From a virus, in the IMG/VR virus record IMGVR_UViG_3300044638_007138, positions 1-22,778 of that record: a stretch of 22,778 nt of DNA. One strand, given 5' to 3'. Below, piece by piece: positions 1 through 22,778 of this stretch. The notes beneath the pieces are model-generated. The model was given only the letters and a program-made list of their open reading frames with translations, ran no database searches and was not told the DNA's origin. A program made the translations under genes and the position numbers. Position 1 is the stretch's first letter. The number at the start of each line of letters is the position of its first letter.

Positions 1-1685
1 ACATTCGTAGTAAAGAGAGTCGTATTAATTCATCAGGTGGATTTGCTGGTGGTTTACTAAAATACTTAAAAATTGTTAATGAAGGATTAAGGTTCTTTAA
101 TCAACAAGGAAGAAGACCGGGTAGTGCAGCTATCTACATTGAACCTTGGCATAAAGACATCATTGATTTACTTGAAATTAAAAAGAACACAGGTGCTGAA
201 GAATTAAGAGCAAAAGATTTATTTACCTCAATTTGGTTACCGGACAACTTTATGAATGCGGTTAAGAACAACGATGATTGGTATTTGTTCTGTCCTAATG
301 ATATTAAAAAGGCGGGGATTAAACCATTACAAGAAACTTATGGTGATGAGTATGAATCAAATTATAATAAAGCCGTTGAACTTGGTTTAGGTAAAAAAGT
401 TAAAGCTCAAACAATTTGGAACAAAATTATTGAATCTCAAGTTGAAACAGGGGTTCCTTATTTATGTTCTAAGGATAGTGCTAACAGAAAAACAAATCAT
501 CAAAACATTGGGGTGATTAAACAATCTAACCTATGTAATGAGATTTACCAATATACTGATGAGAACACCACAGCAATCTGTACATTATCATCAATGGTAT
601 TAAAAAACTTTATCATTAAAGGTGAGTTTGATTTTAAATTACTTTATAGTGAAGTTAGAAAAGTTGTTAGAGCACTTAACAAAGTTGTTGATATTAATAG
701 TTACTCAACTGAACAAGGTAGAAAAGGTGGGTTGGAACAAAGAGCAATTGCGATTGGAACACAAGGACTTGCTGACGTATTCTTTTTAATGGACTATATC
801 TTCACAACTGAAGAGGCAAAAAAACTTAATAAACAAATCTTTGAAACTATCTACTTTGCGGCAATTACGGAAAGTATGGAATTATGTAAATCAGGTGAAT
901 ACAGACCATACGAATTCTTTAAAGGTTCGCCAATGTCAAAAGGAGAATTCCAATTTGATATGTGGGGATTAGATTACGAAGGGTTAAGTAGAATGTGGGA
1001 TTGGGATTCACTTAAATTAGAAGTGTCTAACCACGGGGTTTGTAACTCGTTATTCACGGCTCAGATGCCAGTTGCGTCTTCAGCTAAAATTACAGGTTCA
1101 TTTGAAATGACTGAACCGGCTCACTCGGCTTTATTTAATCGTCGTGTAGTTGGTGGGGAAATTTTAATTGTTAACAAATACTTGATTAATGATTTTGAAA
1201 AAATTGGTATTTGGTCTGAAGATTTAAAAAATGAAATCATTATGAATGAAGGTTCGGTTCAAAATATCAACTTTAATAATTATCTTGACCAAGAAGATAA
1301 AAATTACAATAAAAAAGTTAAAAGAATTGAGCATTTAATTCCAAAATACAAAACAATTTGGGAGATATCTCAAAGAGAACTTATTGATATGGCGGCAGAC
1401 AGAGCACCATTTATTGACCAATCACAATCAATGAATATCTATATGTCAGAACCAACATTATCAAAAATTTCATCATCTCACTTTCATTCATGGGGTAAAG
1501 GACTGAAAACTCTTTGTTATTATGTTAGGACTAAAGCGATATCAACCGGAGCAAAACACTTAGCGGTGGATATTTCAAAAGTTAATCAATCAACAGTTAA
1601 ACAAGAGAAACCAAAAGTGAATCTTGTTGAACCTACAACAAAACCAACAGATTCAGAATTTGAATGTTTTGGATGTGGTTCATAA
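1..1685 (+). CDS. nrdA: Ribonucleoside-diphosphate reductase large subunit, class Ia (5'-partial)
   Basis: This is the catalytic subunit that reduces ribonucleoside diphosphates to deoxyribonucleotides with a radical-generating small subunit (NrdB, not in the window). The frame is open from base 3, so the true start lies upstream; the first internal ATG (252) is not the start. Visible hallmarks are the RPGSAAIYIEPWH and KKNTG region near 115-195, SNLCNEI with the active-site N, C and E (C at 534-536), the partner cysteine in AICTLSS (579-581), the FIDQSQSMNIYMSEP block, the tyrosine pair for radical transfer in CYYVRT (1518-1523) and a C-terminal CFGCGS with the thiol-exchange CxxC (1665-1676). 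The 15-residue spacing of the two active-site cysteines and the CxxCGS end match the eukaryote-like branch of class Ia (human RRM1 ends CLMCGS) more than E. coli NrdA. About 20 extra residues lie near 1270-1335. The first redox cysteine must be upstream of the window. It supplies dNTPs for phage DNA synthesis. Confidence 0.96.
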   Translation, partial: IRSKESRINSSGGFAGGLLKYLKIVNEGLRFFNQQGRRPGSAAIYIEPWHKDIIDLLEIKKNTGAEELRAKDLFTSIWLPDNFMNAVKNNDDWYLFCPNDIKKAGIKPLQETYGDEYESNYNKAVELGLGKKVKAQTIWNKIIESQVETGVPYLCSKDSANRKTNHQNIGVIKQSNLCNEIYQYTDENTTAICTLSSMVLKNFIIKGEFDFKLLYSEVRKVVRALNKVVDINSYSTEQGRKGGLEQRAIAIGTQGLADVFFLMDYIFTTEEAKKLNKQIFETIYFAAITESMELCKSGEYRPYEFFKGSPMSKGEFQFDMWGLDYEGLSRMWDWDSLKLEVSNHGVCNSLFTAQMPVASSAKITGSFEMTEPAHSALFNRRVVGGEILIVNKYLINDFEKIGIWSEDLKNEIIMNEGSVQNINFNNYLDQEDKNYNKKVKRIEHLIPKYKTIWEISQRELIDMAADRAPFIDQSQSMNIYMSEPTLSKISSSHFHSWGKGLKTLCYYVRTKAISTGAKHLAVDISKVNQSTVKQEKPKVNLVEPTTKPTDSEFECFGCGS

Positions 1686-1778: not shown

Positions 1779-2249
1779 ATGGCAGACGGAACAACATATG
1801 GACTTAATTTCCCTTTCAGGGATTCATTAAAGGGTGACTATTTACAGTTAACTGAATTTGAAGCTCAAGAAATTAAGGCGGATTTAATTCACTTACTTTT
1901 GACTCGAAAAGGTTCAAGATATTATTTACCGACATTTGGAACAAGACTTTATGAGTTTTTGTTTGAACCATTTGATGGGTTAACATTTGATGCTATTGAA
2001 TCTGATATTCGAGATGCTGTAGGTACTTTTATGCCAAATTTATTATTAAACCAAATTACAATAAGTCCTGCTGACCCTCAAGAAGAAGTTGATTTAGCAA
2101 CAGGAATGGCGACAATAGGAACAAGTGAGTCATCTGTTTATCGGTTTCCGGGTAAAGGGACTTCAGAATATACCGCAAAAATAAAAATAGATTACTCGAC
2201 AAACAATTCAACTTTTGGACCGAGTGATTTCGTTATCATTAATATTTAA
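1779..2249 (+). CDS. gp25: gp25-like baseplate wedge protein
   Basis: This 156-residue protein belongs to the GPW/gp25 family, small proteins that join the baseplate wedge to the tube/sheath assembly in contractile tails. T4 gp25 has 132 residues. The family pattern is visible: an N-terminal FPF segment, an amphipathic helix (FEAQEIKADLIHLLLTRKGSR, residues about 27-46), the conserved TRKGSRYYLPTFGTRLYEFLFEP run and a following helix (IESDIRDAV). The EPR-type motif usually found after that helix is replaced by FMPNLLL. The next gene is gp6-like, 6 bases downstream, which is the same order as 25-6 in T4 and supports both calls. No Shine-Dalgarno sequence precedes the ATG. The family call is firm; detailed contacts are inferred from T4. 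Confidence 0.9.
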   Translation: MADGTTYGLNFPFRDSLKGDYLQLTEFEAQEIKADLIHLLLTRKGSRYYLPTFGTRLYEFLFEPFDGLTFDAIESDIRDAVGTFMPNLLLNQITISPADPQEEVDLATGMATIGTSESSVYRFPGKGTSEYTAKIKIDYSTNNSTFGPSDFVIINI

Positions 2250-2255
2250 TATCAT

Positions 2256-4094
2256 ATGGCAAATCGTAATATATCATATACTACAAGAGATTTTCAAGGA
2301 ATAAGAACTGAATTATTAAACTATGTAAGAACTTATTACCCTGAATTAATACAGGATTTCAATGACGCTTCGGTATTCTCGGTGTTTTTAGATTTGAACG
2401 CAGCGGTTGCAGATAATTTACATTATCATATTGATAGAAGTATACAGGAGACGGTACTACAATACGCTCAACAGAGGTCTTCAATTTATAATATTGCAAG
2501 AACATATGGATTGAAATTACCGGGTCAAAGACCATCGGTATCTTTAGTAGATTTTTCAATTACGGTTCCGGCCTTTGGAGATAAAGAGGATGAAAGATAC
2601 TTAGGAACATTAACAAGAGGGTCTCAAGTTGTTGGAGCGGGAATTGTTTTTGAAAACATATATGATATTGATTTTACATCACCATATAATGCTCAAGGGT
2701 TTCCAAATAGATTAAAAATACCAAATTTTAATGCTAATAACGTTTTAATTAATTATACCATTACTAAACGAGAATTGGTTGTTAATGGTATTACTAAAGT
2801 GTTTAAAAGAGTAATTACACCTAATGATGTAAAACCATTCTTTGAATTATTTTTACCTGAAAAAAATGTGTTAGGTATTACAAGTGTATTACTTAAGAGT
2901 GGAACTGAATATACTAATATTCCTTCGACCGCAGAATTTTTAGGTGTTGAAAATAAATGGTATGAAGTTGATTCATTAGCTGAAGATAGAGTTTTTATTG
3001 AAGACCCAACTAAAGTATCGGACCAACCAGGTATTAAAGTTGGTAGATATATTCAAACACAAAATAGATTTATAAGTGAATATACCTCCGAAGGGTTTAA
3101 AAAGATGACTTTTGGTGGTGGAACAAACACAGCTCAAGATGCGTTAGACCAATTTACAACAGTTGGTGCGACAATTGACTTACAAAGATATTCAAACAAC
3201 TTTTCATTGGGTTCTGCGTTAATACCTAATTCCACATTATTCGTTCAGTATCGAGTTGGTGGTGGTTTGGCGACAAACTTAGGTACAAATGTGATTAATC
3301 AAGTTGGTACTGTTAATTTCTTTGTAAACGGACCATCTGAGTCAACTAACTCATCTGTTGTTAATTCACTAAGATGTAATAACGTTACTGCCGCGATTGG
3401 TGGTGCGGGGACTCCTTCATTAGAGGAGATTAGAAATTATGTTTCATTTAATTTCTCAGCTCAAAAAAGAGCAGTAACGGTACAAGATTACGAATCAATT
3501 ATTAGAAATATGCCATCAGAGTTTGGTGCACCTGCAAAAGTATCCATAACCGAGAATAATAATAAGATATTAATTCAGTTATTATCGTATGATACTTCAG
3601 GTAAATTAACAAGTATTGTGTCTGATACTTTAAGACAAAATGTTGCAAATTACCTATCCAATTATAGAATGATGAACGATTATATTTCAATATTAACGGC
3701 TGATGTTATTGACTTAAGTATTGATGTTCAGATTGTGTTAGATTCCGCTCAAAATTCAGGACAAGTTATTTCTGATGTAGTTGATAGAATTTCGACTTAT
3801 CTTAATCCACAAACAAGGGAATTAGGTCAAAATGTTTATTTATCTGAAATAAGAAGTATTGTTCAAAATCAAAATGGAGTTTTAACTGTTGCTGGTTTAA
3901 ATGTTTATAATAATGTTGGAGGACAATATTCTTCTTCCGAAACATCTATGGAATATAGTAATTTGGAAACAAAAGAAATCGCACCGGTTGATGATACAAT
4001 TTTCGCTCAACCATCTCAAGTTTATCAAATTAGATATCCTAATAAGGACATTAGGGTGTCGGTTAAAAATTTCCAATCAGTTACCTTTTCATAA
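2256..4094 (+). CDS. gp6: gp6-like baseplate wedge protein (Baseplate_J family)
   Basis: This 612-residue protein is close in length to T4 gp6 (660 residues), which dimerises to form the inner ring of the baseplate and carries the sheath-contraction signal. The N-terminus has the typical opening: YTTRDFQGIRTELLNYV, then a D-x-S-V-F-x-x-F/LDL-x-A-x-x-D-x-x-x-Y stretch (residues about 36-58) and LPGQRPS near residue 90. The C-terminal half shows the Baseplate_J-like pattern: EEIRNYVSFNFSAQKRAVTVQDYESII (about 396-420), then beta-rich segments and NYLSNYRMMNDYISI. It follows the gp25-like gene and is followed by a 95-base gap. No membrane segments or signal peptide were seen. The fold and role come from the family; no residue-level function can be assigned. 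Confidence 0.88.
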   Translation: MANRNISYTTRDFQGIRTELLNYVRTYYPELIQDFNDASVFSVFLDLNAAVADNLHYHIDRSIQETVLQYAQQRSSIYNIARTYGLKLPGQRPSVSLVDFSITVPAFGDKEDERYLGTLTRGSQVVGAGIVFENIYDIDFTSPYNAQGFPNRLKIPNFNANNVLINYTITKRELVVNGITKVFKRVITPNDVKPFFELFLPEKNVLGITSVLLKSGTEYTNIPSTAEFLGVENKWYEVDSLAEDRVFIEDPTKVSDQPGIKVGRYIQTQNRFISEYTSEGFKKMTFGGGTNTAQDALDQFTTVGATIDLQRYSNNFSLGSALIPNSTLFVQYRVGGGLATNLGTNVINQVGTVNFFVNGPSESTNSSVVNSLRCNNVTAAIGGAGTPSLEEIRNYVSFNFSAQKRAVTVQDYESIIRNMPSEFGAPAKVSITENNNKILIQLLSYDTSGKLTSIVSDTLRQNVANYLSNYRMMNDYISILTADVIDLSIDVQIVLDSAQNSGQVISDVVDRISTYLNPQTRELGQNVYLSEIRSIVQNQNGVLTVAGLNVYNNVGGQYSSSETSMEYSNLETKEIAPVDDTIFAQPSQVYQIRYPNKDIRVSVKNFQSVTFS

Positions 4095-12813: not shown

Positions 12814-13722
12814 ATGGCAATTGGAAGCTATGGAACAATAAGACCTTCTGATGTTTCACCAACAGATGTTGAAATCATCATGAATTATACACCGAGTAGA
12901 GATGTTACGGACGCATTTGTCTTAACAAAATTGGATGCTCAAACAATTTTACGACCTTATTTTGAAAATTCTGAAACCGGTGGAAACGCAGGTGTTGAAG
13001 TTTTAGGAGGGTTGTATAATCTAACATTACCTGCAAATCAGTTTAATGCTTTAGGATTTTATACTTTATATTTGAGACCTGCTCAAATCAGAACAGTAAT
13101 TACTGATTGTGGGGTTTTAAGTGCCCTTCCAAATGTTAAAGGTCTTGTGATTGATTTAACTAATGTACCAGCACAATATCAAAACAAATTTGTTCCTCAG
13201 GGGTTAGTTGGTTTTAGAGTGGAATATCTAAATCCGGATGGTTCAAAAATACCTAATTTTTTCAGAGTAATTACTTCAAGTTTTTATTGTGAACCTGTTG
13301 TGTCGAATGAGGTTAATACACAACAAAAGGCGATTAGATATAGATATGTTGATGGTTCTTCAAATTTAATATTTTTAACATTATCACCATCTTCATCTCC
13401 AACAAACAAACCAAATGCAACACCATTTATTGGACAACCAAGCCAAGATATCATTATAACCAATACTTTTTTTAATCCCATCACGGTTGAAATTGAGATG
13501 GTTGAATATGACATTTCATCTCTTGCAATAGCTCTTTATGGTAATCAAACCAAATCTATTGATGATGGAATTTACACAATTTATGATTCACAAAATAACA
13601 TCTATAGACAATACAACTTATACGAGGTTAGAGACCAATTTAATGCGTTGTTATATGAAGTTAGACAAGGTCGAGGTAATAATGTTGATTTTAGTAAAAA
13701 CTTTACAAATATAACAACTTAA
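12814..13722 (+). CDS. Unassigned tail-region protein (302 residues)
   Basis: No family is recognised. It starts MAIGSYGTIRPSDVSPTDVEIIMNYTPSRD and has a predicted beta-rich body: a GGLYNLTLPANQFNALGFYTLYLRP segment near residues 69-90, FRVEYLNPDGSKIPNFFRVITSSFYCEP, then a polar Ser/Thr/Pro loop (SPSSSPTNKPNATP, about 193-206). The C-terminus is helical and charged (YEVRDQFNALLYEVRQGRGN). No signal peptide or membrane segment was seen. It is the first gene after a candidate promoter and is coupled to the next gene by TAATG. The neighbour is a Tail_P2_I-like protein, so a baseplate-to-fibre connector role is possible, but this is positional inference only. Confidence 0.7.
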   Translation: MAIGSYGTIRPSDVSPTDVEIIMNYTPSRDVTDAFVLTKLDAQTILRPYFENSETGGNAGVEVLGGLYNLTLPANQFNALGFYTLYLRPAQIRTVITDCGVLSALPNVKGLVIDLTNVPAQYQNKFVPQGLVGFRVEYLNPDGSKIPNFFRVITSSFYCEPVVSNEVNTQQKAIRYRYVDGSSNLIFLTLSPSSSPTNKPNATPFIGQPSQDIIITNTFFNPITVEIEMVEYDISSLAIALYGNQTKSIDDGIYTIYDSQNNIYRQYNLYEVRDQFNALLYEVRQGRGNNVDFSKNFTNITT

Positions 13723-16709
13723 TGGCAGTAAATACGACAACAACAAAATATTTTTATCCGCCAAGACCTGGTAGTGGGGCTGCGACTTTTTCCGACAACA
13801 TTGTAGGTTTACAAACTGTTGAAGGGGGAGGTTTAACGCAAGGTAATTTTGAGTTTACAACTTCGGTTACAGAAAAAGTTAATAGAAATTTTAATGTTGG
13901 AGCATTTTCCGAACCGTTAAGTTTACAATCGTTAAACATTGAAGATGTTAATGAAAGTAGAAGAATTATTGCAACTCAGTTTAGGGTTTATCCTAATTAT
14001 GATGTTTCACAAGTTCTCAACTTTTCGATGTATGGTTCTTTACGTAAAAGATTCCAAGTATCCGCAACGAAAATTATTAATTATTTTCCTGCCTCTTTAG
14101 ACGTTCAATTTTCAAACTTAGTATTTGTTACAGGTGCAACTGCAGTTAATGTCAGTTATGACCCTATTGAAGACGAAACTTATTTTCAAATTAATGTTGA
14201 TAGGATTAATAATCCTTTTGATATTGATTATTCTATAAGTGCTGCAACCAATCTAAATTTAAGGGAAATCACAACTTCACCATATAGAAATTTATATAAC
14301 ACTTATTTAGACTATTGTGTTAGTATAAACGATAATATATTCAAAATAAATTCATTTCAACCATCGGATACATTAGGTACTGGTTATATTAGTTTTTATG
14401 TTTCAGGTGCTCCTTTTGGTGAATCGGCAACTACAGTTTTCGAAGAATACCAAATTAGACCGAATGATTTAATTACTGATAAGATATTTGCAGAAAATTT
14501 TGATGAAGTTGAAAAATTCTTATTAAATAGGTTAATAAGACCTGAATACACTGCGGTGTTTCAAATTCCTGCTCAAACTGAAAATGGGGAATTTTTTACA
14601 GATTACCAACAAGTTACTTGGCCTAAAGACGGCCCTTGGAACTTAGATATTAGGTCATTACAATTTGATGGTTATTTGGCTCAATTGGATGCAATTGCGG
14701 AAAATTTAGATTCGTTTAAAACAAATTTAATTTCAAGATTTTTGGTGACAGACTCGTTAAAAGAGTTTGATACTATGGGTCAAAAAGTTGAGAAGATATT
14801 TCAAATTTATGGTAGAAGTTTTGACCAAATAAAACAATTCATAGATGCATTGGCTTATATGAATTCGGTTAACTACAATCCATCTAATGATATACCATCA
14901 CAATTACTTGTTAATCTTGCTCAAACATTAGGGTGGTCATCAAATTTCTCACCAATTACGGATGAAGATTTTTTAGAATCGATATTTGGAAATACTTCAA
15001 CACCAACTTATCCTGGTTACACAAGAGCTTTAACACCTACTGAAATTAATTACGCATATTATCGTAATTTAATTATTAATGCCTCTTACTTATTTAAATC
15101 AAAAGGAACAAGAAGGTCAGTTGAATTTTTAATGAGGTTAATTGGGGCTCCGGATTCATTAGTTGAATATAATGAACATATCTATTTAGCCGACCAAAAG
15201 ATTAATTTAGACCAATTCTATACGCAATGGGCTACAATATCAGGAGGGACTTATGTTGATAATACTCCGGCTTATTTGCCTGGTGAAACATATAAAATTA
15301 GAGGTAATGTTTATTCTGCTTATACATCAATCGCAACATATGAAGATGTATCGATAAGGTTAGATGAATACCCTATTGATAGTTTAGGTTTTCCAAAAGC
15401 TCCTGTTAATACCGAAAGTTATTTTTTCCAAGTTGGTTCAGGATGGTATGAATCAACCCCACAACATAGAAGTCCGGATGAAGTGATTATTACCGGTGAT
15501 GTTTATACCGGTCAAAACTATAATATCCAAACTAGTTTAAGTCCATTTACTTATGGACAACCGTATTTAGATAGATTTAGACAATTCCCTTACATGACTG
15601 AAGGGTTTAAGTTAAAAAAAGTTGTTGATAATAAAAAGTCTTGGTTAGAAGAAGATAATAAAATTAGAGTATCGACTGAGGGTGATTATAATGCCTATTA
15701 TTATGTTGACGATGAAAAACTAGTATTAAATGTTAAAAATGTAGATTTATTTTTAAATCCTTCCCAAGGTCTTGTTTATGATGTTTGGAGACAATCGGTT
15801 AGTTATGATTACCCAATACCTGAATCCGGATTAACTGTTGGTTATCCTGTTCCGGGAGGTGTGGATTGGACTTATATTAATCCTGAACCTAAAAAGAAAA
15901 CATTCTTTGAATTCTCACAAACGTTTTGGGAGAATATGATTAATGTTAGAAATCGACAATACATTAGTGATGGTAAAACAGGAGGATATCCAACATTACA
16001 ATCTATATGGTGGAAATACATTGAATCTGAGGCGACAGTTGGATTACCAAATAGCAAATATACTTATCAAAAACTTATTGATTATGTTACAGGTATTGGT
16101 CCTTATTGGATGAAATTGGTGGAACAAATGTTTCCTGCCACAACAATTTGGAATACCGGTGTTAAATTGGAGAACTCAGTTTTACATAAACAAAAATTTG
16201 TTTATAGAAGACAAAGAGGATGTCAATTCGTTCCGGTTCCTGTTAATCCTTGTTTTATAATTAGTAATATCTTCGATTATAATTGTGCAACCGAATCAAC
16301 TGAATTTTTTGTATATCCATGGTTAAATGGGGACCCTAATGTTGGTAATTTTAATAGTATTTTGGCAAATCGAATTGATAATATGTTATCTCAAAATGGT
16401 TTAACATTAAATGATTGTGTACAAAATTCTGTGGAGACTCAATGGTATGTTGATTTAAGAATTGGTGGTGAATTATTAATTAAAGAACCATTTTATGTAG
16501 GTTATGGATATACAGATGTACCAACACTACAAATGTGGAGGATTGCATTATTCGATAATCTATCATTATTATACGATTATGGGTTTACATACGAAATTGA
16601 TGGAAATATATTAAAAATAGAAAGTTTAACTTGTACGGAAAGAAATATTGATGAATTGTTAACTTTAAATGTGGGAATACAAATAAATATAAATTGTAAT
16701 ACTAACTAA
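13722..16709 (+). CDS. Large tail protein with a gpI/Tail_P2_I-like segment (995 residues)
   Basis: The central part (about 345-490) reads like phage tail proteins of the P2 gpI kind and related large-baseplate proteins: helical KVEKIFQIYGRSFDQIKQFIDALAYM, LLVNLAQTLGW, then YYRNLIINASYLFKSKGTRRSVEFLMRLIGAP, where the L-x-K-S-K-G-T-R-x-S/A-I/V-E motif (KSKGTRR at 459-465) is the recognisable signature. The N-terminal 340 residues are beta-rich and unassigned. Residues after 500 are Tyr/Pro-rich and beta-like, and the C-terminus has several cysteines (CQFVPVPVNPCFIIS, NYNCA-like, LTCTERN, NINCNTN). In gpI-type proteins this region links the baseplate to tail fibres. One-base overlaps (TAATG) join it to both neighbours. 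The family call rests on a motif by eye. Confidence 0.72.
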   Translation: MAVNTTTTKYFYPPRPGSGAATFSDNIVGLQTVEGGGLTQGNFEFTTSVTEKVNRNFNVGAFSEPLSLQSLNIEDVNESRRIIATQFRVYPNYDVSQVLNFSMYGSLRKRFQVSATKIINYFPASLDVQFSNLVFVTGATAVNVSYDPIEDETYFQINVDRINNPFDIDYSISAATNLNLREITTSPYRNLYNTYLDYCVSINDNIFKINSFQPSDTLGTGYISFYVSGAPFGESATTVFEEYQIRPNDLITDKIFAENFDEVEKFLLNRLIRPEYTAVFQIPAQTENGEFFTDYQQVTWPKDGPWNLDIRSLQFDGYLAQLDAIAENLDSFKTNLISRFLVTDSLKEFDTMGQKVEKIFQIYGRSFDQIKQFIDALAYMNSVNYNPSNDIPSQLLVNLAQTLGWSSNFSPITDEDFLESIFGNTSTPTYPGYTRALTPTEINYAYYRNLIINASYLFKSKGTRRSVEFLMRLIGAPDSLVEYNEHIYLADQKINLDQFYTQWATISGGTYVDNTPAYLPGETYKIRGNVYSAYTSIATYEDVSIRLDEYPIDSLGFPKAPVNTESYFFQVGSGWYESTPQHRSPDEVIITGDVYTGQNYNIQTSLSPFTYGQPYLDRFRQFPYMTEGFKLKKVVDNKKSWLEEDNKIRVSTEGDYNAYYYVDDEKLVLNVKNVDLFLNPSQGLVYDVWRQSVSYDYPIPESGLTVGYPVPGGVDWTYINPEPKKKTFFEFSQTFWENMINVRNRQYISDGKTGGYPTLQSIWWKYIESEATVGLPNSKYTYQKLIDYVTGIGPYWMKLVEQMFPATTIWNTGVKLENSVLHKQKFVYRRQRGCQFVPVPVNPCFIISNIFDYNCATESTEFFVYPWLNGDPNVGNFNSILANRIDNMLSQNGLTLNDCVQNSVETQWYVDLRIGGELLIKEPFYVGYGYTDVPTLQMWRIALFDNLSLLYDYGFTYEIDGNILKIESLTCTERNIDELLTLNVGIQININCNTN

Positions 16710-18841
16710 TGGCTCTTAATTATAATATAAATGTAACGGGAGATTGTTTTAATACCTCAAATGGGGTGATTGATTTAACGATGTCTAATGGTACGTCGCC
16801 TTATACTGTTCAATGGATTGAGCCATCATTTCCAACAAACATAATATTATCTTCGATAACTAAAACTAATTTAGTCGGAGGGACATATAGTATTGAAGTA
16901 ACTGATAGTTCATTACCAACTAATCAAGTTATATATATTAATATCCCTGTTTCGAATGGGGTATGTTGTAGTATAACAAATGTTAATAATACAACTTGCT
17001 CACTTAATAATGGGTCTGTTACAGGTACTTCAACGACACAATACTCTTCAACAAATTATTATTTATATCAAAATAATAATGTTTATGTTCAATCCGCATC
17101 AACAAATCTTAATAATGTTGTCTTTGACAACTTAAGTGCTGGGACTTACTATATGACGGTTTTAGACCTTGGAGGTTGTACTGGAAGAAGTGAAAGTTTT
17201 ATAGTTGAAGAATCGGAAGTACTAAATTATGGTTTATACATGGTTCCAAATTCGTCTTGTGGAGGGACCCCAATTGGTAAAATTAGTGTAACAGGTATAA
17301 CAGGACAACCTCCGTTTAGTTATTTATGGAATAACGGACAAACAGGTTCTACCATAACAGGTTTAACTTCAGGTCAATATTCAGTTATAGTTACTGATGG
17401 TTATGGGTGTAATTTAGGTAAAAACGAAACAGTGACTGATGTTGACCCAATAGGGTTTGGTATTTTCACTGTTGTATCACCAACTTGTTTTAATTCTGAC
17501 GGTTCGGTTAGTTTAACAATTACCGGTGGTACTGCCCCATATTATTATTCTGCTTCAACAGGGGTGGTTGAAGTTTCATATTCAAAAACTTTTACAATTT
17601 CGGGGTTGTATTCAGGGACTTACGGGTTTTTAGTTACAGACGCAGGACTTTGTACTTTAAATGTTGAAACATCATTGATTCCACCAAACGGTATTAATTC
17701 GGTGTCTGTTCAAACAACTAATTCAACTTGTTCAAGTGTTGATGGTAAAATTTTAATTTCAGTTATTGGTGGAGAAACACCATATACATATACTTTAATT
17801 TCTCCTGGGGGTGACACTAACAATATTAGTAATAACCAAACCGCTCAATTATTTGAGAATTTATCTGAAGGAACTTATTCGATAGGGGTTAGTGATAGTT
17901 CAGGATGTTCTTATATTGAGGAGGTTTATATTATGACTGATAATCAGTATACTATATCAACATCAGTTACAGGTACTTCTTGTAATCAAGTGAATGGTTT
18001 CATAGGTGTTACGGTTAGTTCAGGAATTACATTTCCACTTAATTATTCTATTGATAATGGGATATATGATATCTTAAATACAAATTTAACTGCGGTAACC
18101 TTTAATAATATTTCTGCCGGAACACACACGGTTACAGTGACTGATGGGGCCGGATGTGTTCAATCTTCTAGTGTATTAGTTACCGGAAGTGAAAGATTGG
18201 ATTATTCACTGTATAGTATTTCTTGTGGCACGGGTAATAGTGGTAAAATAACTGCGTTTATAAATTCAGGTCTGCCTCCATTTACTTTCTATTGGTCTGA
18301 TAATGTGCCAAACAATCCTCAACAAATTCAAGTATCAGGTTTAACGGGTGGAACTTATAGTTTAACTATTGTAGATAGTGGTGGGTGTTCATTAGTTAGA
18401 AGTGCCTCAATTAGTTGTTTTGCTAGTTTAACATCATATCAAACTTATGTTATGGGTGAGGAAGTTTTCAATATTGAATCGCCAACTAAGTTTGGTTTAT
18501 TACAAATGTTGAATGAAGGTTTTTATGATTTAACATTGGATAATGAAGGGTGTGATTTAGTAAGTGCGACATTCACTGCAAAAGTGTCGGTAACACCGCT
18601 TGATTTAACAACTAGTGAACTATTTTTTACAACTACTTCGTTAAATGTCGGGCCAACGGATAATGAATATTATGATACCATTAAACAGTTATTATTGACG
18701 GTTCCGGGAATTGCGAATGTTACCATAAACGCTTTAACAAATCAAATTACGATTGAGACAACAAGAGGTGATGATACTTTAAATGGTCAAGAAATTATTA
18801 TTGATTTGATTATAGAGTATGATATAATGTGCTTAACATAA
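16709..18841 (+). CDS. SprB-repeat adhesin-like tail protein (710 residues)
   Basis: Residues about 9-570 form some seven repeats of 70-85 residues with the SprB-repeat pattern: an early cysteine, G-x-I/V plus a strand, PP/PY-x-F/Y-x-W, G-x-x-x-x-I/L-x-x-L-x-x-G-x-Y, ending V-x-D-x-x-G-C. Clearest is GQPPFSYLWNNGQTGS with SGQYSVIVTDGYGC (about 193-234). Approximate bounds are 9-86, 92-171, 178-246, 252-329, 332-412, 418-493 and 503-570. A different, cysteine-poorer C-terminal domain (about 571-710) follows. SprB repeats are known from the Flavobacterium johnsoniae gliding adhesin and many Bacteroidota surface proteins. There is no signal peptide or type IX secretion tail, which fits a virion component rather than a secreted cell protein. 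TAATG joins it to the preceding gene. A fibre or receptor-contact role is inferred. Confidence 0.8.
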   Translation: MALNYNINVTGDCFNTSNGVIDLTMSNGTSPYTVQWIEPSFPTNIILSSITKTNLVGGTYSIEVTDSSLPTNQVIYINIPVSNGVCCSITNVNNTTCSLNNGSVTGTSTTQYSSTNYYLYQNNNVYVQSASTNLNNVVFDNLSAGTYYMTVLDLGGCTGRSESFIVEESEVLNYGLYMVPNSSCGGTPIGKISVTGITGQPPFSYLWNNGQTGSTITGLTSGQYSVIVTDGYGCNLGKNETVTDVDPIGFGIFTVVSPTCFNSDGSVSLTITGGTAPYYYSASTGVVEVSYSKTFTISGLYSGTYGFLVTDAGLCTLNVETSLIPPNGINSVSVQTTNSTCSSVDGKILISVIGGETPYTYTLISPGGDTNNISNNQTAQLFENLSEGTYSIGVSDSSGCSYIEEVYIMTDNQYTISTSVTGTSCNQVNGFIGVTVSSGITFPLNYSIDNGIYDILNTNLTAVTFNNISAGTHTVTVTDGAGCVQSSSVLVTGSERLDYSLYSISCGTGNSGKITAFINSGLPPFTFYWSDNVPNNPQQIQVSGLTGGTYSLTIVDSGGCSLVRSASISCFASLTSYQTYVMGEEVFNIESPTKFGLLQMLNEGFYDLTLDNEGCDLVSATFTAKVSVTPLDLTTSELFFTTTSLNVGPTDNEYYDTIKQLLLTVPGIANVTINALTNQITIETTRGDDTLNGQEIIIDLIIEYDIMCLT

Positions 18842-18842
18842 C

Positions 18843-19148
18843 ATGACACAAATTACTATTACAGATATTTCAGGAGGAACATATCCAATTAGTGTATACA
18901 TTGCGGATGTATATGGTAATAATCGTTATTTATTAGGGACAATTAACTCTGGTCCTGTACCACCAACAGTTTATTATAATACTGTAATACCAACAATATT
19001 TAATACCGCTCCGGAAATTATGTTATTGTTAGTGGATGATAATGATTGTGAGATTTTTAAAATACTTGATTGTACGTTTGGTTGTACATTTAACATTACT
19101 ATTGAATTGGTATCTTGTACCGTTAATATCAATATTACTGAAGCATAG
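18843..19148 (+). CDS. Small unassigned tail-region protein (101 residues)
   Basis: This short beta-like protein begins one base after the stop of the SprB-repeat gene, so it is probably translated by coupling. It opens TQITITDISGGTYPISVYIADVYGNN. Its second half has three cysteines close together (CEIFKILDCTFGC) and one more near the end (SCTVNI). No family is recognised. A faintly similar layout (a Gly-x-Tyr/Phe-x-Ile-x-Val/Leu strand followed by an aromatic loop) occurs in residues 42-74 of the next gene, so the two may share a small domain. It is the only gene here that stops with TAG. Real coding is supported by its tight fit, frame length and composition. Confidence 0.68.
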   Translation: MTQITITDISGGTYPISVYIADVYGNNRYLLGTINSGPVPPTVYYNTVIPTIFNTAPEIMLLLVDDNDCEIFKILDCTFGCTFNITIELVSCTVNINITEA

Positions 19149-19236: not shown

Positions 19237-20319
19237 ATGTCAATATATTCTATTCTTGTTACTAATAATGCGCCTGGATGTGTTTCCGAAATTGAACAAC
19301 AATTAACGGTAACAGCGTGTACTCAATACATTATTAGTCTCACTTCAAATTCAACATCATTAGGACCATTTAACATTTATTTAGATGATTTTATTTACTA
19401 CTCTGCAGTAACTCGAAATAATTTTTTAGATGGGGTTGTTGTGAATGTTGACTGTATAACACCAACGCCAACTAATACACCAACTAATACGCCAACACCA
19501 ACACAAACTCCGACAAATACTGAGACACCTACTAATACACCTACTAATACTCCAACCCCTACTCAAACAGGTACGTCAGGATTAACACCTACCCCAACAC
19601 CAACAAATACGGAAACTCCAACTCAAACGCCAACAAATACGGAAACTCCAACTAATACTCCAACTAATACACCTACAAATACGGGAACTCCAACTCCTAC
19701 ACCGACGCCTACTATGGCGGCGTTCTATGCTTATATCTTTGCTGAACCTCAAGACTCAACAGATGATACTGATTTACTTAATTTTGCGACAACAGGAGGA
19801 GCAATTGATTGGTATTCTTATTATTCTGCGACAGTCCCTAATGATAACTCAGGAAGTTACAGTAATGATTTAGATGTTTACGCTCATCAACCATCATTTA
19901 TTAATGGTACAGGTAATTTTGTTAAACCTGACGACTTAAAGGCTCCAATAGCTCAAGTTAATGGACAAATGATAAATGGTCTTAGTCAAAGTATTTATAC
20001 ATTTGGTTCAATAGAGGTTAATTCATCGATGGTTACACCATCTGAAGAGTATTTTTACACTATTTGGATACCATTAAACGGTGTTAATGGTTCTCTAACT
20101 GACATGACAATTGATGTTGGAACTAATCTTGGTGGTGATGAAATTTATAGTAATATTGGGACCATTGTTGGTACTACGGCACTTAATGTGAACGTTACAT
20201 CCGGAGCTGCAATACCTGCTGGGACTTATCGAGTATTATGGGTAAGTCCACAATTTATATTACCAATACTAACACCGTTATCAGGTTCACTATATTTTAG
20301 AGGTGACACTAAAAGTTAA
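19237..20319 (+). CDS. Fibre-like protein with Pro/Thr-rich stalk (360 residues)
   Basis: Three parts are visible. Residues 1-74 contain [15 protein letters not shown], which looks like the tail end of a SprB-type repeat, then a small beta segment ending NVDC. Residues 75-159 are a low-complexity stalk of Thr-Pro units ([24 protein letters not shown] and variants) broken once by GTSGL. Residues 160-360 form a polar beta-rich domain beginning [17 protein letters not shown] and ending LYFRGDTKS, possibly the host-contacting head. An in-frame TAA at 19225-19227 shows the ATG at 19237 is the earliest possible start, so the N-terminal repeat really is partial. No signal peptide is present. Pro/Thr stalks hold domains apart in surface proteins and fibres. 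The function in host contact is inferred. Confidence 0.75.
19459..19713 (+). repeat. Pro/Thr-coding tandem repeat
   Basis: About 85 codons alternate ACN, CCN and AAT, giving Thr-Pro-Thr and Thr-Asn-Thr units. Near-identical stretches built on ACAAATACGGAAACTCCAAC recur at 30-base spacing around 19605-19680. Short repeats like this change length easily by slippage, so stalk length may differ between relatives. Confidence 0.85.
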
Positions 20320-20349: not shown

Positions 20350-22778
20350 ATGGCGTTTCCATATAAAAATCCTACATCATTAAGTCTTCTAAATTCACCT
20401 GAAGGTGTTACTTTAACTAATCCACAAGGGACTAATTTTTCAGTTTCACAAGTTGGGGGTTATCAAGAGGTGTATTACACAGATAATTTAAAATTGACTT
20501 TTAGTGGTACTGGCTCTCAAACACTTTCAGCTAATACTGTTCCAATACAGATTTCGGTACAACCAAATTCGGGATTACAATGGACTATCTTAACACTTAA
20601 TTCTGATAATATTTCATCAGGAAGAAGAAAACTTGGAATGCAAGTTTATGTTTATGAAACGGATACTGTTTATCAATACTACATACCTGATTACGATGTC
20701 TTATGGGGTAATCTTACAGGTTTAACAGGTAGTTCAGCAATAACACAACAATCAACATTTACAACAGTAAACGCTAGGTCTCAAGCGGGTAGGGATTTTA
20801 TTAGCGCTTGGACCGGTTCAACAATTGAGGGTATTGATGGTGTTACAAGAGATGATGCCAAATGGAGAATAGTTAGCTCCACTGACATTCAAATTACAGG
20901 TGGAACATATTATTCTGCGACAACAACTTTAGATTTATTCAATAACACCGGAGGTACTGTAACAATAACAGGATTTACAGGAACAATAACCGGTGGAACA
21001 TATAATAGTGGTACTGAAACGTTAACACTTAATAATAGTGATGGAAGTGAAGTAGAAATTTCAGGATTCACATCAGGTACAGGGTCAGCCCTTTCGGTTG
21101 GTGATGGTGTTACTACAGTGTTTCCTGTTTCAGGTATTACATTTGTTAACGCTACTGTAACTAATAATGGCAACGGTAATATTACCGTTACTACTTCTGC
21201 AGGAACAAGCGGGACTTCAGGTACAAGTGGAACTTCGGGTGTTAATGGAACATCGGGAACAAGTGGTACTTCAGGGACTAGTGGAACAACAGGGACAAGT
21301 GGTACTTCAGGGACTAGTGGAACAAGTGGGACCTCAGGAACTAGTGGGACTTCAGGCACATCAGGGATTAATGGTACTTCAGGTACAAGTGGAACTTCAG
21401 GAACATCAGGTACTTCAGGGACTACCGGAACATCAGGGACTAGTGGTATTGATGGAACATCAGGTACTAGCGGTATTGATGGAACATCGGGGACTTCAGG
21501 TATTGACGGAACATCAGGTACGAGTGGTATTGATGGAACATCAGGTACTAGCGGTATTGATGGAACATCGGGGACTTCAGGTATTGACGGAACATCAGGT
21601 ACGAGTGGTATTGATGGAACATCAGGTACGAGTGGTATTGACGGAACATCAGGTACAAGTGGTATTGATGGGACATCGGGAACTAGCGGTATTGACGGAA
21701 CGTCAGGGACTTCGGGTATTGACGGAACATCAGGGACTTCGGGTATTGACGGAACATCAGGTACAAGTGGTATTGATGGTACATCGGGGACAAGTGGTAC
21801 GGATGGAACTTCAGGAACTAGCGGAACTTCAGGAACAGATGGTACTTCAGGTACTAGTGGTATAGATGGTACTTCAGGAACAAGTGGTACGGATGGAACA
21901 TCAGGGACTTCGGGTATTGACGGAACATCAGGTACTAGTGGTACGGATGGAACTTCAGGGACTAGTGGAACAACAGGGACATCAGGTACAGATGGTACTT
22001 CAGGTACTAGTGGTACTTCAGGTCTTAGTGGTGTAAATGGTACTTCAGGTACAAGTGGAACAACCGGTACTAGTGGTACAAGTGGAATTGATGGTACATC
22101 AGGTACTTCAGGTACTTCAGGTACATCTGGAACTAGTGGTATTGACGGAACATCGGGGACTTCAGGTACGAGTGGAACTAGCGGTACTTCAGGTATTGAT
22201 GGAACTTCAGGCACTAGTGGTACATCAGGAATTGATGGTACTTCAGGAACAAGCGGAACTTCAGGTATTGATGGTACATCAGGAACTAGCGGTATTGACG
22301 GAACTTCAGGAACAAGTGGTACAACCGGAACTAGTGGAACATCAGGTATTGATGGTACTTCAGGTACAAGTGGAACATCAGGTATTGATGGAACTTCGGG
22401 TACCTCAGGTACAACAGGAACTTCAGGAACTAGTGGAACTACGGGTACTTCAGGCACGAGTGGTACTTCAGGTACGAGTGGTATTGATGGAACTTCGGGA
22501 ACTTCAGGTATTGACGGAACGTCAGGTACTAGTGGGACTGATGGTACTTCAGGAACTAGTGGAACTACAGGAACATCAGGTACTTCAGGGATAGATGGAA
22601 CATCAGGAACCTCGGGAACAAGTGGAATAGATGGTACTTCAGGAACTAGTGGAACTACAGGTACTTCAGGAACTAGTGGAACTACAGGTACTTCAGGAAC
22701 AAGTGGAACAGATGGTACATCAGGAACTAGCGGAACAGATGGTACTTCAGGTACAAGTGGAACAGATGGTACATCAGG
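20350..22778 (+). CDS. Collagen-like Gly-X-Y fibre protein (3'-partial, 809+ residues)
   Basis: The frame opens at the ATG at 20350 (MAFPYKNPTSLSLLNSP) and runs without a stop to the window end, so the C-terminus is missing. Residues 1-180 are a beta-like N-terminal region (VYYTDNLKLTFSGTG, WTILTLNSDNISSGRRKLG). Residues 182-242 hold two 31-residue repeats starting ITGGTY and ending SGFT/TGFT, a pattern I associate with phage fibre proteins. A short linker (VGDGVTTVFPVSG) leads to residue 285, after which every third residue is Gly to the end: 175 unbroken triplets, about 125 GTS, 27 GID, 10 GTT, 9 GTD and a few GVN, GIN and GLS. There is no proline and no basic residue in the rod. Thirty bases separate it from the stalk gene. 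It is most likely a long tail fibre or whisker rod; a receptor-binding tip would lie beyond the window. Confidence 0.85.
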   Translation, partial: MAFPYKNPTSLSLLNSPEGVTLTNPQGTNFSVSQVGGYQEVYYTDNLKLTFSGTGSQTLSANTVPIQISVQPNSGLQWTILTLNSDNISSGRRKLGMQVYVYETDTVYQYYIPDYDVLWGNLTGLTGSSAITQQSTFTTVNARSQAGRDFISAWTGSTIEGIDGVTRDDAKWRIVSSTDIQITGGTYYSATTTLDLFNNTGGTVTITGFTGTITGGTYNSGTETLTLNNSDGSEVEISGFTSGTGSALSVGDGVTTVFPVSGITFVNATVTNNGNGNITVTTSAGTSGTSGTSGTSGVNGTSGTSGTSGTSGTTGTSGTSGTSGTSGTSGTSGTSGTSGINGTSGTSGTSGTSGTSGTTGTSGTSGIDGTSGTSGIDGTSGTSGIDGTSGTSGIDGTSGTSGIDGTSGTSGIDGTSGTSGIDGTSGTSGIDGTSGTSGIDGTSGTSGIDGTSGTSGIDGTSGTSGIDGTSGTSGIDGTSGTSGTDGTSGTSGTSGTDGTSGTSGIDGTSGTSGTDGTSGTSGIDGTSGTSGTDGTSGTSGTTGTSGTDGTSGTSGTSGLSGVNGTSGTSGTTGTSGTSGIDGTSGTSGTSGTSGTSGIDGTSGTSGTSGTSGTSGIDGTSGTSGTSGIDGTSGTSGTSGIDGTSGTSGIDGTSGTSGTTGTSGTSGIDGTSGTSGTSGIDGTSGTSGTTGTSGTSGTTGTSGTSGTSGTSGIDGTSGTSGIDGTSGTSGTDGTSGTSGTTGTSGTSGIDGTSGTSGTSGIDGTSGTSGTTGTSGTSGTTGTSGTSGTDGTSGTSGTDGTSGTSGTDGTS
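20893..21075 (+). repeat. Two 31-residue ITGGTY repeats in the fibre N-terminal region
   Basis: The codons for ITGGTY recur at 20893 and 20986, 93 bases apart. Each unit continues with a Thr/Leu strand, an N-N-T/S turn and ends in a T-G-F-T or S-G-F-T strand. This suggests a small repeated beta element leading into the rod. Confidence 0.7.
21202..22778 (+). repeat. Gly-X-Y coding array (9-base period)
   Basis: From 21202 the sequence has a 9-base period (GGN ACN TCN/AGY) that stays in frame to the window end, 175 triplets. A 27-base higher-order unit (GTSGTSGID) is repeated 13 times in a row at 21427-21777. Synonymous codons vary widely (TCA, TCG, AGT, AGC for Ser; all Gly third bases), so most copies differ in DNA while keeping the protein. 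The G+C content is higher than in the rest of the window because of the Gly codons. The regularity keeps other phases and the minus strand open too, which creates false reading frames. Confidence 0.95.
21445..21606 (+). repeat. Exact 81-bp tandem duplication inside the Gly-X-Y array
   Basis: Bases 21445-21525 and 21526-21606 are identical, base for base, and each covers three GTSGTSGID units. Identity continues for about 23 bases into the next unit before synonymous differences appear. Against the varied codons of the other units, this points to a recent duplication by slippage or unequal recombination. Confidence 0.85.

Follow-up and report, generated by a model that had tools for sequence, protein, structure and literature searches.

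The tail proteins of crAss-like phages carry tandem BACON domains for which a role in host binding has been proposed, and single domains are described as duplicated or horizontally transferred (PMC6949934). The Hoc protein of phage T4 is presented as a conserved C-terminal attachment domain with a string of variable immunoglobulin (Ig)-like domains (PMC10385173). Another tandem array, built of SprB-type repeats (Pfam PF13573), is encoded in the 22,778-base IMG/VR-type virus record IMGVR_UViG_3300044638_007138, the whole of which was analysed and is called the window; its GC content is ~32% across most of its length, and it is most likely a fragment. The protein in question (16709..18841, plus strand) has 710 residues that make up seven Ig-like units, a linker and a C-terminal alpha/beta domain, and its gene lies in an operon of tail genes.

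Seven SprB units

The 710-residue protein belongs to the SprB-repeat domain family PF13573, which is the only Pfam family to pass its cut-off in this protein (78.5 bits, E 2.8e-22, five stretches; curated cut-off 28 bits), and a generic Ig or PKD match was rejected on the same ground. No BACON domain was matched at E 1 in the Pfam search, and no PHROG match was found at E 0.1. In a six-frame search PF13573 matched the window at five places, of which three lie beyond the per-match cut-off, and matched none of 14 control genomes. The stock Pfam model detects five of the seven units; a profile made from 107 units, taken from bacterial SprB proteins and from the phage record LR756502.1, described below, locates seven units in a row, at residues 12-72, 93-170, 180-244, 257-325, 336-409, 421-494 and 504-569. 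Their scores in descending order are 58.4, 47.8, 46.2, 41.9, 41.5, 39.6 and 18.8 bits, and none of 200 shuffled copies scored above 11.0 bits. An earlier sequence-only reading of this DNA had counted about seven SprB repeats in residues 9-570, a count borne out by the units at 12-569; the Pfam profile search that it proposed gave the expected family, with fewer than seven stretches, and not a best match to unrelated Ig-like repeats.

All units lie on the plus strand: U1 at 16718..16960 (residues 4-84; six-frame match 16745-16822), U2 at 16964..17212 (residues 86-168), U3 at 17219..17446 (residues 171-246; match 17249-17344), U4, the top Pfam stretch, at 17450..17689 (residues 248-327; match 17465-17566), U5 at 17693..17941 (residues 329-411; match 17708-17806), U6 at 17945..18193 (residues 413-495) and U7 at 18194..18418 (residues 496-570; match 18218-18304), U2 and U6 being detected only by the bacterial-unit or phage-unit profiles. 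A linker of low model confidence (18419..18493, residues 571-595) joins them to the C-terminal alpha/beta domain (18494..18838, residues 596-710), a proposed docking domain. An AlphaFold2 model made with an alignment of 46 relatives has a mean predicted local distance difference test score (pLDDT) of 82.7 and consists of seven beta-sandwich domains and the alpha/beta domain at 596-710; the predicted template modelling score is 0.35, and the mutual placement of the domains is therefore not fixed by the model. Of the 81 loci this alignment (A3) keeps 46 rows once near-copies at 92% identity are removed, with the window in place of L008; alignment A4 has 36 rows, i.e. 43 listed minus 8, plus the window, and A5 and A6 have 21 rows each, drawn from these two sets. 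Each of U2-U7 contains a pair of cysteines, and in all six pairs both residues are conserved in 45 or 46 of the 46 rows.

Among the matches listed in the structure comparisons, the top three Foldseek hits to solved structures are pieces of GhpA, the grappling hook protein of Aureispira (best E 6.7e-20), and a second comparison also places GhpA 9flv first (Z 12.3, rmsd 12.9 over 366 residues). Next, within a few Z units, come many strings of Ig or fibronectin-III domains, so that the fold alone says "Ig-like string" and the SprB label comes from the sequence. That label has its own limits: the Wac whisker of Buttiauxella phage GuL6 (L007:1423-3711) has Ig-like repeats after its fibritin C-terminal domain that match the SprB model past the cut-off. 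In Wac whiskers such matches overlap Ig_3 and Ig_2 matches, and the SprB label is doubtful for these repeats. Because they match too, a PF13573 hit by itself does not tell SprB units apart from Ig-like phage repeats of other kinds.

Relatives and history of the array

Scans of IMG/VR gave 14 loci and then the best 80 of 258 stretches encoding relatives, from which 81 distinct loci were studied (L025-L036 and L181-L184 lie outside the analysed set). Their identity is 56-100% and the protein has 710-712 residues in 70 of the 81. Five relatives are clearly longer (742, 780, 863, 863 and 1087 residues), the extra length being PT-rich or further C-terminal segments; the 1087-residue homologue (L101:7995-11258) has at its end a PT-rich linker and an extended region resembling a beta-propeller by eye. 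The largest contig with a relative has 326,291 bases, so that some members, at the least, are very large phages. The SprB-array gene is a fixed gene of this phage lineage.

The history of the array was followed in a tree of 117 rows, i.e. 49 phage units (seven phages, from 7 of the 46 phage proteins), 56 bacterial units (at most five per locus), 10 from LR756502 and 2 others. Each of the seven positions forms a single group (support 70-100, starred for three groups), and none of 500 shuffles gave a grouping by position as low. The seven-unit array is therefore old and was complete before the compared phages diverged; the units have been neither swapped nor homogenised since then among the phages compared, and recent repeat turnover was not seen. 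Most LR756502 units cluster together and the bacterial rows need 11 changes; with 82 columns the tree is too short to settle whether the deep origin lay in one or several captures. One pattern scan for relatives, over 84,980 genomes of bacteria and archaea, yielded 20 stretches, none of them confirmed, and this result together with the seven position groups led to the rejection of a recent capture from a host.

The suggestion that the phage had taken up host adhesin modules thus stands in part: the units are of the Bacteroidota SprB-repeat family, but capture from a present host is not supported, as that one scan confirmed no relative and the repeat tree with bacterial SprB units, a check of the kind proposed in the sequence-only reading, shows the seven positions as separate old groups common to the phages compared. 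Nor need the source have been a gliding adhesin. PF13573 is also reported from proteins other than SprB, namely a fucoidanase (PMC7698502) and cargo of the type IX secretion system (T9SS) beside polymorphic toxins (PMC7073777).

Several relatives carry more than one SprB gene. In G004 a second SprB-bearing protein (L024:3518-5560; 43518-45560) has 680 residues and two units and lies beyond the collagen fibre; further SprB-bearing frames occur in G015, G016, G018 and G019, with open frames of 829-958 residues in those other than G004. Beside its collagen fibre G004 also encodes, on the minus strand (L023:13795-18815), a 1451-residue protein with several glycosyltransferase and FkbM methyltransferase domains and an FkbM protein of 221 residues; possibly these enzymes modify PT-rich or collagen-like fibres.

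Gene order and host

The operon opens with a gp25-like baseplate wedge protein (1779..2249) and a gpJ/gp6-like wedge protein (2256..4094), both recognised by family matches; five proteins without family matches separate these from a 995-residue baseplate-operon protein (13722..16709). The SprB gene stands directly after this last conserved gene of the baseplate operon and ahead of the fibre genes, its start overlapping the stop of the 995-residue gene by 1 nt, as is also the case in 67 of 78 relatives. The coupling to tail genes proposed from the sequence is thus confirmed. Downstream follow a protein of 101 residues that is weakly and only suggestively SprB/Ig-like (18843..19148), a protein of 360 residues with a PT-rich linker, a probable fibre or tip protein (19237..20319), and a collagen-like tail fibre that continues past the window end (20350..22776), all, like the wedge genes, the 995-residue gene and the SprB gene, on the plus strand. 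The 101-residue protein was dropped as a further SprB unit because its alignments are short and weak. No capsid gene was identified among the window proteins by Pfam and PHROG profile searches.

Two genes upstream of the SprB gene is a 302-residue protein (window:12814-13722) without a Pfam or PHROG match, and it has the highest conservation among six tail genes compared (mean identity 0.893). The collagen-like fibre has 3343 residues in G004, and many related contigs stop within the fibre gene; the end of the window inside this gene is likely an assembly break. A minus-strand frame of 622 residues opposite the fibre (window:20350-22778) is probably a by-product of the collagen-like repeat.

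The host was approached through the partial ribonucleotide reductase (RNR) large subunit at the start of the window (3..1685, plus strand, profile match). It found 62 loci in bacterial genomes, most of them Bacteroidota by record title, and the best are titled Crocinitomix, Flavobacteriales and Saprospiraceae (43-47% identity); some lower matches are titled as other phyla. Among phages the best RNR matches are from Tenacibaculum and Cellulophaga phages (41-43%). By such resemblance the hosts are probably Bacteroidota. SprB repeats occur in 9 of 10 genomes behind the RNR loci, a biased sample picked from the RNR matches.

Export features

The sequence-only reading had noted that the protein lacks a signal peptide and a type IX sorting tail, and both observations hold. 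The peak 10-residue hydropathy in the first 40 residues is 0.51, against 2.65 in the SprB protein of LR756502.1 used as control, and Pfam finds neither CHU_C nor Por_Secre_tail in the 710-residue protein or in any of 12 records of the phage family. Since signal peptide and type IX sorting domain were both looked for and neither was found, the protein is not a SprB gliding adhesin.

LR756502.1, a record of 642 kb from an uncultured phage in which a terminase was matched, differs in this respect. Its SprB protein (L006:18933-23945) has 1670 residues with 13 SprB stretches, a PKD domain, a CHU_C tail and a signal-like N-terminus of its own; its SprB units are phage-encoded like those of the 710-residue protein (29.2% identity in tblastn, with 77% of the query covered), from which it differs in these export features. 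Four open reading frames (ORFs) of the record, this one and those at L186:1188-3884, L187:1508-1858 and L185:1583-2143, combine a signal-like N-terminus, judged by eye for three and by computed hydropathy for the 1670-residue protein, with a sorting domain of type IX, which is CHU_C in three and Por_Secre_tail in one. No tail gene was recognised in the ten flanking ORFs scanned around the SprB gene. Type IX cargo would be unusual for a phage and an assembly error may account for it; a 634-kb record has a match to the C-terminal part of the 1670-residue protein. The contrast suggests two modes of SprB modules in phages, i.e. as part of the virion and as apparent cargo exported by the host.

Function

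The reading preferred here, with moderate confidence, is that the 710-residue protein is linked to the baseplate and projects outward as a string of Ig-like domains of host type, auxiliary to adsorption. It would be a structural tail protein in a lineage of large myovirus-like Bacteroidota phages, made in the cytoplasm and then built into the tail, with the C-terminal domain docked on the baseplate and the seven-domain string directed outward, its N-terminus distal. Such a string could act as an auxiliary adsorption device, making reversible contact with a glycan- or adhesin-coated host surface in addition to the main fibres, which are collagen-like; the cysteine pairs of U2-U7, being invariant, could close after lysis and stiffen it, these bonds presumably being formed outside the cell. 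The proposed orientation draws on the C-terminal domain, which probably has the same fold as the C-terminal end of the 995-residue protein. The two have an identical predicted order of elements, H-E-E-H-E-E-E, and a hhalign score of 24.6 that was not equalled in 200 column shuffles (maximum 20.0); the common order and the score favour C-terminal docking and an exposed N-terminal string. In Flavobacterium phage Immuto the counterpart of the gpJ-like protein is annotated as baseplate wedge (27.0%, E 2e-49), and Microcystis phage Mel-JY01 also has a protein that matches it. The 995-residue family likewise has one match behind the gp25/gpJ-type genes of each (Mel-JY01 E 2.3e-9, Immuto E 5.1e-4, in a small database and a comparison run without HMMER filters), the Immuto counterpart being among genes annotated as baseplate.

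Several observations weigh against this arrangement. The hhalign probability for a common C-terminal domain is 10.7%, another stretch of the 995-residue protein (241-400) scored 20.4, and the structure model of that protein is poor (pLDDT 36.6), for which reason a fold search with it was set aside; profile searches of the 995-residue family and the C-terminal domain against solved structures gave nothing convincing. The PT-rich or tip segments fused at the C-terminus in 5 of 81 relatives suggest that this end can be exposed, which weakens the orientation. The location in the tail would rest on gene order, and the near-constant length is at least as easily explained by a spacer as by a fast-evolving binder. 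In the stretches compared, no SprB unit was matched in Immuto or Mel-JY01, cultured phages with a similar baseplate protein; the gene is therefore not needed in all such tails, and it seems to have been added to a more widespread type of baseplate operon.

On balance, and by analogy with the BACON arrays, host glycan or adhesin binding appears the most likely use, with a plain spacer as the main rival. As a mechanical spacer or adaptor the rod would carry the 101-residue, 360-residue and collagen-like fibre proteins on the baseplate without binding the host, which would suit the constant length (710-712 residues in 70 of 81 loci), the nearly invariant cysteine pairs, the fibre genes directly downstream and the five relatives with segments fused C-terminally. 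This is judged somewhat unlikely, inasmuch as the SprB gene shows less conservation than any of the other five tail genes with which it was compared in 73 of the 81 loci (mean pairwise identity 0.644 against 0.704-0.893) and U1 is the most variable part of the protein (0.554; the highest are U7 at 0.716, U3 at 0.674 and the C-terminal domain at 0.669), a pattern unexpected for a buried adaptor. A place on the head or neck, as a decoration protein of Hoc or whisker type that is encoded in the tail operon and helps the particle attach to surfaces, must be rated unlikely. The gene order is that of baseplate and tail fibre with no capsid gene identified in the window, and the protein itself lacks a PHROG match at E 0.1, even if pseudotevenvirus Wac whiskers have Ig-like repeats that match the SprB model, there are weak matches to profiles of a neck whisker (E 0.029) and of decoration proteins (E 0.045 and 0.18), and a Hoc-like PHROG is matched by the other SprB-bearing protein of G004 (E 1e-3).

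An action on the host during infection, as a surface-exported adhesin or in superinfection exclusion, with no part in the virion, is scarcely credible: the exportable SprB protein of LR756502.1, with its signal-like N-terminus and CHU_C tail, gives it a precedent, but the 710-residue protein has no N-terminal hydrophobic segment, T9SS tails are found in 0 of 12 family records and the gene overlaps one of the tail operon. A bolder form of the adsorption reading, and a long shot, is an ancient conversion of an adhesin module of the host phylum into a tail part by which the virion engages surfaces, glycans or moving adhesin tracks of gliding Bacteroidota; if true, the phage rides or finds its host by means of the host's own adhesion chemistry. 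As far as is known, little has been worked out about the proteins by which phages adsorb to gliding Bacteroidota, and a fixed, widespread tail gene from a host-phylum adhesin module is a concrete candidate for a part in this adsorption.

Comparison with known systems

SprB repeats in phages were not found as a subject in the open-licence literature, among the matches listed. The family is already in databases by name, since the best match among viral models (BFVD/UniProt; whole length, E 6.6e-62), A0A6J5LD72 of 714 residues, was deposited as "SprB repeat [uncultured Caudovirales phage]". It is most likely of the same protein family, though more distant (35% identity) than the studied loci, and its name comes without a stated function. 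The gliding adhesin SprB of Flavobacterium, which the gliding machinery moves over the cell surface, has the repeat family PF13573 in common with the 710-residue protein, which differs from it in being phage-encoded and in having neither signal peptide nor T9SS sorting domain. GhpA of Aureispira (9flp, 9flv), a genus of the Bacteroidota, has a like tandem beta-sandwich fold; it is a giant bacterial protein, and identity in the alignments is 14-21%. The plan of a C-terminal domain with an Ig-like string is that of T4 Hoc, except that Hoc has three units and sits on the head while the 710-residue protein has seven SprB-type units and a gene linked to baseplate genes. With the BACON arrays the likeness lies in a Bacteroidota-associated domain that is repeated in tandem in a tail-associated phage protein, here as tandem beta-sandwiches encoded among tail genes; the BACON precedent is thereby extended to another host-type domain and to apparently large environmental phages. 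The 710-residue protein is a tail-associated tandem Ig-like array as in the BACON proteins, but of another domain family and with a fixed seven-unit plan that is kept across its lineage.
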